Positions 20,312 through 44,612 of a DNA stretch of 64,000 bases are shown here, piece by piece. Every line of letters begins with the position of its first letter. The stretch's first letter is position 1. The translations under genes were made by a program, and so were the position numbers. The stretch is from contig JAIYAE010000038.1 in NCBI GenBank assembly GCA_027489175.1, positions 1 through 64,000 on the forward strand, in the 5' to 3' direction. The notes under the pieces were generated by a model. It was not told the origin of the DNA. It was given only the letters and a program-made list of their open reading frames with translations, and searched no databases. The DNA comes from Rhodobacter sp. GTDB lineage: Bacteria > Pseudomonadota > Alphaproteobacteria > Rhodobacterales > Rhodobacteraceae.

Positions 20312-21327
20312 CAGCGGCGGCCTTTCTTGACGATCTGCGGCACGCCCATGTCAGCGGGGTCAAGCGCCAGCGCTGGGGCACCCGTCCGCCGCGCCACCCG
20401 CAGCTTGGCGGAGCGCGAGCGGGGGTTTGCGGCCTGTTCGGCGTCATCGGGGCCAACGGCGCGGCGGGTCACCAGATCAAACCGGGCGGTAGTGTCGGTC
20501 TTGGCAGGGGCATAGCGGTTGGCGTTCGCCTCATGCCCGGAGGCGAGCTGGAAGAAGCGTTTGACGATGCGGTCTTCGAGGGAATGGAAGGTCACGACGG
20601 CCAGCATCCCCCCCGGCTTCAGCGCGCGTTCGGCGGCGGCAAGACCTTCGGCAAGTTCGGTAAACTCGGTGTTCACGGCGATACGGATCGCCTGAAAGCT
20701 GCGCGTCGCGGGGTGGCTTTGCCCGGGCTTCGGGCGCGGCAGGCAGCGGGCGACAATCTCGGCCAGCCTTGCCGTGGTGGTGATCGGCTGCACCGCACGC
20801 GCAGCGACGATGGCATGGGCAATCCGGCGCGAGGCGCGTTCTTCGCCGTAGTTGTAGAGGATGTCGGCGAGGGTGGTTTCGTCGGCCGTGTTCACAAGGT
20901 CTGCGGCGCTGTCGCCAGACTGACTCATCCGCATGTCGAGGGGGCCGTCCTTCATGAAGGAAAACCCACGCTCGGCCTGATCCAGCTGCATCGATGACAC
21001 GCCGAGGTCCAGCACGATCCCGTCAAGGGGTTCGCCCGCCAGCGTATCAAGGTTGGAGAACGTCCCCTGCACCAGCCGGACGCGATCCCCAAAAGGTGCC
21101 GCCCAATCGGCCATCTGCAGGGCCAGGGGGTCGCGGTCGATACCGATCACGCAATCGGCCCCAGCCTCAAGCAGGCCACGCGTATAGCCGCCTGCGCCCA
21201 GCGTCCCATCAAGCCAAAGCCCCCGAACGGGGGCGACGGCGGCAAGAAGCGGCTGCAGAAGGACCGGAATATGGGGGTCGCGCGCGGCGATGTCGGAACG
21301 CGGCTGCACATCGCGGGGATGCATCAC
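20311..21327 (-). CDS. rsmH: 16S rRNA (cytosine-1402 N4) methyltransferase RsmH
   Basis: RsmH methylates N4 of C1402 in the 16S rRNA P-site region using SAM. The protein has [10 protein letters not shown] at its start, the SAM-binding [15 protein letters not shown] and [30 protein letters not shown], the insertion helices ending in [15 protein letters not shown], and [15 protein letters not shown]. The first codon of the track ORF is GTG, directly followed by ATG. AGGAG lies eight bases before the GTG, so the GTG at 21327 is kept. It overlaps mraZ by 4 bp. Confidence 0.95.
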
Positions 21328-21833
21328 ATTCCCCGCTCCTTCTTGGCGCGGCCCAGAAGCGCCAGCGCATCCAGCCCCGCATTCGGCCGCTGCGCCACGG
21401 CGCTGTCATAGGTGTCCCGGCGATACAGGCGAAAGCGGTTGTTGCGGCCCTGAAACGCGGCCTCATCCCCGGCGAAATCAGCGCCGGTCAGGCCGATCTT
21501 TTCCCGCACGCGAGGCGGCAGGACGATACGGCCGTCGGGTTCGACTTCAACCATGACCGAGCAGGAGAGAAGGTCGAACTCGACCTGCTCGCGCTCGTCT
21601 GAGCCTTCGTCCATCAGGCTGATCTCATCGGCCAGCGCATCGGCGCCCGCCTTGGTATAGCATTCGACGAAATTCCGGTTCGCGCCACCATAGATCATGT
21701 AGACGCGCGGGCGGGGAAAATCACTGCTTGGCGGATCATCGGATTCAAGAATGCGGCGAAAGGCGGCGGGGATCGAGACCCGGCCCTTGGCATCTACCTT
21801 CTGGTAGAACTCGCCTCTGAACGCCTCTGCCAT
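21324..21833 (-). CDS. mraZ: Transcriptional regulator MraZ
   Basis: MraZ is a DNA-binding regulator of its own dcw operon. The 169-residue protein has two AbrB-like SpoVT repeats: [29 protein letters not shown] in the N-terminal half and [22 protein letters not shown] in the C-terminal half, each with the DxKGR / PDGRI turn that contacts DNA. It heads the dcw operon. Upstream lie a terminator-bearing leader and arrays of GGGA boxes at 10-bp spacing that fit MraZ operators (22115-22139), so autoregulation is likely. It is somewhat longer than the E. coli protein because of a C-terminal extension. Confidence 0.95.
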
Positions 21834-21890: not shown

Positions 21891-21933
21891 AATGAAAAAG
21901 GCGGATCGGGTTGCTGCCACTACCCGATCCGCC
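21891..21933 (-). terminator. Intrinsic terminator inside the mraZ leader
   Basis: Perfect 12-bp arms GGCGGATCGGGT / ACCCGATCCGCC separated by 10 bases, followed on the minus strand by CTTTTTCATTTC. It stands about 60 bp upstream of the mraZ start, on the same strand, so it would truncate most transcripts into a short leader RNA rather than end a gene. Confidence 0.88.
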
Positions 21934-22114
21934 GCTGTCCCATCGCTGGGCGTCCAGCTGCGCGTGCCACCTGGGGGAGATGTCTGCTCGCTCGCGCGCC
22001 GGATCTCTGTCGTCCGATCAAATGGGGCTGCCTGTATGAAGCTGCCTATCGCCTTCGTTTCGGGGTCTTGTAGCTGCCCCTGCTTAGTCTTTCCCATCTG
22101 CCGTCCGTGAAAGA

Positions 22115-22139
22115 AGGGATGCCATGGGATCACATGGGA
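22115..22139 (+). promoter_or_regulatory. MraZ-box array (three GGGA repeats at 10-bp spacing)
   Basis: AGGGA, TGGGA and TGGGA start at 22115, 22125 and 22135, exactly 10 bp apart, so all lie on one face of the helix; a weak fourth (CGGAA) follows at 22145. MraZ of E. coli binds TGGGN direct repeats separated by 5 nt in front of mraZ. Here the repeats read away from mraZ. Confidence 0.6.
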
Positions 22140-22164
22140 ATCAACGGAAATCTTTGGGGAAACG

Positions 22165-22450: not shown

Positions 22451-23065
22451 TCAGGCCGGGCGCTGGAACAACAGCCGCAGATAGCGTTCAAGGTGATCAA
22501 AGGCCTCACGCGCGGGGGTGGGGTCATTGGCGGCCTTGGCCAGGATGATCCCGCCCTGGGTTGCGACCTGAAACTGCATGGCAAGGCTGTCGGCCGTCAC
22601 GCCGGGCACCGGGTGGCGGGCCAAAGCCTCGGCCAGATGGGGGCGGACATGATCGGCCCCGGATTGAACGCTCTGCCCCGCCGCGGTGCGGATCAGGGCT
22701 GAGGTTTCAAACACCTCTTGCACCGTGGTGCCCGCAACGCAGGAGAAATCGGCCACCGACTGGTTCAGAATCGCGCGGCGCAGGTCCAGATAGGCAAAGA
22801 CCCGGTCCAAGGGATCAGCAGCGCGGTTATAGTCGTGCGCGGCAAACATCGCGCTGGTGGTGACGGTCCAATCCTCGACCAAAGCCACGCCAAGCGCCTC
22901 TTTCGTCGGGAAATGGTGGAAGAAGGCGCCCTTGGTCACCCCGGCGGCGGCGCAGAGGTCATCGACGCTGGTCGCGGCAAAACCCTTGTGCCGGACAAGA
23001 TCGCGCGCGGCTGCAAGCAACCGCGCGCGCGCTTCGCCCCGGGGCGGGCGGATTGTCTGGGTCAA
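22451..23065 (-). CDS. TetR/AcrR-family transcriptional regulator
   Basis: A 204-residue regulator with an N-terminal HTH: ARARLLAAARDLVRHKGFAATSVDDLCAAAGVTKGAFFHHFPTKEAL, the canonical TetR fold with recognition helix TKGAFFHHF. The C-terminal ligand domain contains VADFSCVAGTTVQEVFETS, like the regulators with a conserved Cys in the TetR_C domain next to glyoxalase/VOC genes. It is the last gene of a four-gene minus-strand operon behind a perfect palindrome (24717-24740), a plausible autoregulatory site. Confidence 0.92.
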   Translation of the reverse strand: MTQTIRPPRGEARARLLAAARDLVRHKGFAATSVDDLCAAAGVTKGAFFHHFPTKEALGVALVEDWTVTTSAMFAAHDYNRAADPLDRVFAYLDLRRAILNQSVADFSCVAGTTVQEVFETSALIRTAAGQSVQSGADHVRPHLAEALARHPVPGVTADSLAMQFQVATQGGIILAKAANDPTPAREAFDHLERYLRLLFQRPA

Positions 23066-44503: not shown

Positions 44504-44612
44504 AAGTGCGGAACGAGGGACAGTGAAGTCAAGGACGGGGTTCCGGCCCGTGCCTCCACTTTTAAACGTAGGAACGTTGGGACAGCGTTAAAGACCTGTC
44601 TCGGATTCGTGA

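Follow-up and report, generated by a model that had tools for sequence, protein, structure and literature searches.

A UpsM-like leader RNA with an intrinsic terminator ahead of the dcw cluster of Rhodobacter sp., and its probable StsR-like partner

The 64,000-nt stretch of Rhodobacter sp. DNA analysed here (the window) carries on its minus strand a hairpin terminator preceded by a leader and followed by mraZ, which raises the question of whether the leader is a true homologue of the small RNA UpsM or a mere look-alike, and of what would control it. UpsM (RSs0682) comes from the dcw 5′ UTR of R. sphaeroides, where it starts 268 nt before mraZ and has a length of 206 nt, and its presence throughout Rhodobacteraceae has already been published (Weber et al. 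2016, PMC5089854). It is abundant, bound by Hfq, cleaved by RNase E, and arises by partial termination with rare read-through; the R. sphaeroides leader has a single promoter, and read-through into dcw amounts to about 1 in 100.

The terminator, designated R4, occupies positions 21933–21895 of the minus strand and consists of a perfect 12-bp stem (5′ arm GGCGGATCGGGT, 21933–21922; 3′ arm ACCCGATCCGCC, 21911–21900), a 10-nt loop AGTGGCAGCA (21921–21912) and the T-run TTTTT (21899–21895), with a hairpin energy of −26.1 kcal/mol. Both the stem length and the T-run given in an earlier note on this DNA are exact, and the distance to mraZ on the same strand, estimated there as about 60 bp, was measured as 61 nt to the ATG at 21833, which fits the Rho-independent terminator of UpsM, located about 60–85 nt before mraZ. 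When both strands of the 64 kb were searched for perfect stems of at least 11 bp followed by T4-5, R4 alone was found, versus none in five mononucleotide shuffles. A simple terminator scanner gave no match at R4 because its loop limit is 8 nt. In Rfam the UpsM-like RNA has no family at the gathering threshold, and the terminator gave only a sub-threshold match to ctRNA_pGA1.

The first gene after R4, located at 21324–21833 on the minus strand, codes for MraZ (Pfam PF02381, 41 bits against a cut-off of 23) and is followed by rsmH (RsmH/MraW), a small gene in the ftsL position, ftsI (FtsI), and murE- and murF-like ORFs named from their own sequence, the whole constituting the dcw cluster. Upstream of the leader, on the same strand, there is a TetR-family gene (22451–23065). 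Judged by MraZ (93–95% identity), the closest relatives bearing a name are MAGs labelled Rhodobacter sp. and Tabrizicola sp.

The reference for comparison was genome G051 with its leader L029, taken to be R. sphaeroides 2.4.1, the PufA of which is 100% identical to the query sequence of R. sphaeroides PufA. Its mraZ begins at 694,904, adjoining the published UpsM RNase E site at 694,720 (PMC6238624), and this start falls within the published NtrX peak labelled mraZ; the reference leader therefore contains UpsM itself. Mapped on L029, position 694,720 corresponds to UpsM nt 85, which belongs to the single-stranded segment linking R1 to R2. The alignment to UpsM proposed in the earlier note was run against this locus, and the window leader aligns with it.

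A predicted promoter (22144–22116, minus strand) has the same position relative to the start as in the case of the mapped R. sphaeroides UpsM start, which places the start of the window RNA at about 22107 and leads to a predicted 5′ UTR of about 274 nt and an sRNA of about 213 nt (22107–21895, to the end of the T-run). The leader proposed previously stands, but its upstream limit of 22158 is slightly too distant, as 22108–22160 represents promoter and operator-like DNA. The predicted folds of the window and R. sphaeroides RNAs share the same order of domains R1 to R4. R1 (22107–22010) has a long-range closing stem enclosing a GGGGC/GACCCC hairpin and the conserved UUCAUACAGGCA; R2 (22004–21953) is a hairpin with the nearly invariant GCGAGCAGACAUC(U)CCCCCAGGUGG; and R3 (21950–21939) folds as a short CCCA-GCGA-UGGG hairpin matching the 4-bp R3 described for UpsM. 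In 63 genomes the R1 closing stem had an energy of −18.2 kcal/mol with its own partners versus −13.3 kcal/mol with partners swapped between genomes. R1 was called hardly conserved in the 2016 UpsM paper (PMC5089854); contrary to that, its closing stem appears, judging by these energies, to be kept through compensatory change.

MraZ was detected in 387 of 397 genomes of the family, and the terminator was recognisable in nearly all of the 89 leaders examined, with the loop AGUGGCAGC being almost invariant. Among 79 aligned 3′ parts, 13 of the 20 consensus pairs showed compensatory changes, and the twelve-pair terminator accounts for seven of these. A covariance model of the leader 3′ part found exactly one copy in each of 61 Rhodobacteraceae genomes (61/61) and no match in 140 genomes of other alphaproteobacterial families. 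The window leader scored 151 bits (E 4e-34) against this model, being itself one of the 79 training rows; genomes outside the training set match the model equally well. The UpsM-like identity put forward earlier is borne out by the locus alignment, the shared domain order, the promoter, the position and the single-copy match to a family-wide model, which together show the leader to be a UpsM homologue by sequence comparison rather than a mere look-alike.

The same data bear on the suggestion that the hairpin merely stops transcripts arriving from upstream, with mraZ served by a close promoter of its own and hence with no sRNA being formed. Some transcription could enter the leader from the TetR-family gene on the same strand (22451–23065), but conservation covers the whole RNA and extends beyond the hairpin, a conserved promoter occupies the UpsM position, and in R. 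sphaeroides the 188-nt and 67-nt fragments preceding mraZ show no promoter activity, so that we regard this reading as barely conceivable.

It had also been suggested that attenuation of the entire cell-wall cluster is conserved. Built-in partial termination agrees with the evidence, whereas regulated, riboswitch-type attenuation does not, no covariation of an antiterminator having been seen. In the regulated version a ligand, protein or peptide would control the terminator through an R2–R4 antiterminator, and there are indeed features pointing that way: base pairing is possible between GAUCCG of R2 and CGGAUC in the 5′ arm of the terminator, and an R2–R4 refold was reported for R. sphaeroides when the terminator was forbidden, although the same 2016 paper described it as non-conserved (PMC5089854). 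R2 GAUCC is nearly constant, whereas the terminator arms covary with each other; weak wobble pairing is still conceivable. Besides, the antiterminator is a 6-bp pairing that would need to displace a 12-bp stem. An 82-codon ORF (22097–21849, minus strand), the ATG of which lies 10 nt past the predicted start, runs through the leader and its terminator and might code for a leader peptide serving an attenuator; it is open in close relative L136 but broken in close relative L135, so it was not taken as coding and the leader peptide was rejected. Because the antiterminator pairing was never seen to covary, a riboswitch is unsupported, and regulated attenuation of this kind seems quite improbable.

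The predicted promoter comprises the −35 element TTGATT (22144–22139), a 17-nt spacer and the −10 element CATCCC (22121–22116), and as a whole it does not match the E. coli consensus strongly. The R. sphaeroides start is immediately preceded by TTGMTTYCCATGAAWTCCCATGGCATCCC, which is found at the same place in the window and is strongly conserved among 85 leaders. Overlapping the promoter is an array of TCC(C) repeats, TTTCCgttgATTCCCatgtgATCCCatggcATCCC (22150–22116, minus strand), with a 10-bp period, which resembles an MraZ operator and would be bound by MraZ. TCCC repeats every 10 bp scored at least 13/16 in 60 of 87 leaders, versus 4 for the best of 20 shuffles of each, and the array was found nowhere else in the genome except for one match with 1 mismatch. 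The MraZ repeats of E. coli, which are of the TGGGN type, are located downstream of the −10 box, as are those of B. cenocepacia, whereas the window repeats fill the interval from the −35 to the −10 element and overlap both. The B. cenocepacia site consists of four 7-nt repeats with 3-nt spacers (PMC7761207) and those of Mollicutes, as cited in PMC8475190, of AAAGTG[T/G] repeats; the likeness to both lies in direct repeats of 10-bp period at the dcw promoter. Since the phased repeats match the anatomy of MraZ operators and are unique in the genome, MraZ probably represses the UpsM leader together with its own dcw operon, as judged by analogy. The UpsM paper (PMC5089854) was not found to refer to an MraZ operator, and the testable prediction that MraZ represses UpsM is likewise absent from it.

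Other regulators are possible at this promoter because both NtrX and CenR have been reported by ChIP at the R. sphaeroides leader promoter. The repeats might then be core promoter elements or a site for one of these proteins, with UpsM outside MraZ control. In R. sphaeroides the NtrX peak (694,110–695,200) spans the promoter, loss of NtrYX lowers dcw mRNA, and enrichment of CenR was seen upstream of mraZ; moreover, the TTG and CAT portions of the repeats overlap the −35 and −10 elements. However, core elements alone would not need phased repeats, the 10-bp period is that of MraZ sites elsewhere, NtrX has a different proposed motif, GCAn9TGC, and that of CenR was reported absent near the UpsM start. 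We consider such an explanation unlikely but deserving of serious attention, and repression by MraZ is retained as the preferred reading. Separately, ACAAnAT-type motifs, AACAACATATTG and AACTACATCCTG, are present at about 22176–22165 and 22206–22195 on the minus strand, roughly 33 and 62 bp ahead of the −35 element; their 30-bp spacing recurs in many relatives (0.69 matches per leader versus 0.04 in shuffles), and the pair is a possible activator site, perhaps for NtrX or CenR.

UpsM has a partner in R. sphaeroides. StsR (RSs0827; Grutzner et al. 2021, as cited in PMC8307010, PMC8625941 and PMC11354728) is described as a 72-nt sRNA under RpoHI/RpoHII which base-pairs with UpsM as well as with the 5′ UTR of dcw, leading to RNase E cleavage. 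The StsR locus was sought by scanning the region of the R. sphaeroides genome where map order puts RSs0827, and a terminator-ended locus at 858 kb was found to carry UUCACUGUCCC, the exact complement of UpsM nt 13–23; from map order and complementarity we infer that this locus is StsR. In the window a probable homologue is located at 44559–44471 on the minus strand (83 bits to its own family model), between genes coding for a SpoU-family rRNA methyltransferase and a CoA-binding-domain protein, and the assignment is suggested by the conserved seed, the terminator and flanking sequence that matches R. sphaeroides. Homologues were matched in 32 of 32 family genomes at a lenient cut-off, two or three of them weakly, and the covariance model of the StsR-like RNA found 60 of 61 family genomes and gave two borderline matches in 140 others. 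All 20 aligned copies have ACUGUCCCUCGUUCC in common. The StsR-like RNA has no family in Rfam 15 at the gathering threshold; both RNAs are near-universal in Rhodobacteraceae yet without an Rfam 15 family. In the StsR-like RNA, CGGAAC in the first-hairpin loop is complementary to a GUUCCG that follows the seed (99% of cells paired in the alignment, one covarying pair), which may represent a pseudoknot confining the seed to a loop. As regards an RpoHI/RpoHII-dependent promoter, a CTTTAA...CCTA pattern can be made out ahead of the gene.

In 73 of 89 leaders a site adjoining the dcw terminator on its 5′ side is complementary to the invariant StsR stretch CUGUCCCUCGUUCC, the site being GGGACAG in 36 and GGGACGAGG in 37 of the 89; among shuffled seeds, 4 of 500 did as well as the real one. 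In the window this predicted StsR-binding site is GGGACAG (21941–21935, minus strand), the complement of StsR CUGUCCC, and an StsR-like sRNA is predicted to pair with the leader there. The match is 7 bp only, with the UpsM half of R3 predicted to be paired, and the 11-nt complement of the R. sphaeroides type at the 5′ end is degraded in the window leader. Duplex energies of own and foreign StsR:UpsM pairs showed no informative difference.

Taken together, it is highly probable that the locus serves the dcw operon as its UpsM leader, with a promoter, partial termination into an sRNA and minority read-through, a reading based on homology, structure, covariation, and conservation of the promoter and repeats; control by MraZ and StsR is proposed in addition. 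The dcw cluster would be driven from a sigma-70-type promoter located about 274 nt ahead of mraZ, most transcripts would end at R4 and accumulate as the sRNA of about 213 nt, and a minority would continue into mraZ and the cell-wall genes, while MraZ, bound to the 10-bp repeats over the promoter, would repress its own operon along with the sRNA. During stress or stationary phase, an StsR-like sRNA might pair with the leader and expose it to RNase E, which would lower UpsM and change dcw mRNA, as published for R. sphaeroides. More tentatively, and with somewhat less than an even case for it, the two-sRNA UpsM–StsR circuit could be ancient and fixed in Rhodobacteraceae, its ancestral StsR contact being the site that borders the dcw terminator on the 5′ side and not the 5′-end site of R. 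sphaeroides, with MraZ repressing the UpsM promoter, so that the abundant sRNA would report MraZ activity, and with the invariant terminator loop AGUGGCAGC serving in trans as another seed or as a site for a protein.

The analysis thus places a predicted brake on transcription of the whole operon, along with the sRNA likely to control it, in an uncultured Rhodobacter lineage, and since both the UpsM-like leader and the StsR-like sRNA are near-universal in this major freshwater and marine family, results obtained in R. sphaeroides are likely to apply broadly. Additions to the published account of UpsM, part of which may be known from StsR work, would be the single-copy, family-restricted counts, the parallel distribution of StsR-like RNAs, the covariation seen in the terminator and in R1, the promoter with its operator-like repeats and the predicted StsR site next to the terminator.

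Compared with the UpsM locus itself, the window leader shares the position before mraZ, the promoter, the R1–R4 order, the terminator and its loop, with RNA lengths of about 206–213 nt and leaders of about 268–274 nt, the window values being predicted. It differs in having a stronger T-run (T5) and a different ORF and in missing the 11-nt StsR complement at its 5′ end. The StsR-like locus at 44559–44471 resembles StsR (RSs0827) in its invariant seed, terminator and matching flanks, and differs in that its best complement in the window leader is the 7-bp site adjoining the terminator.
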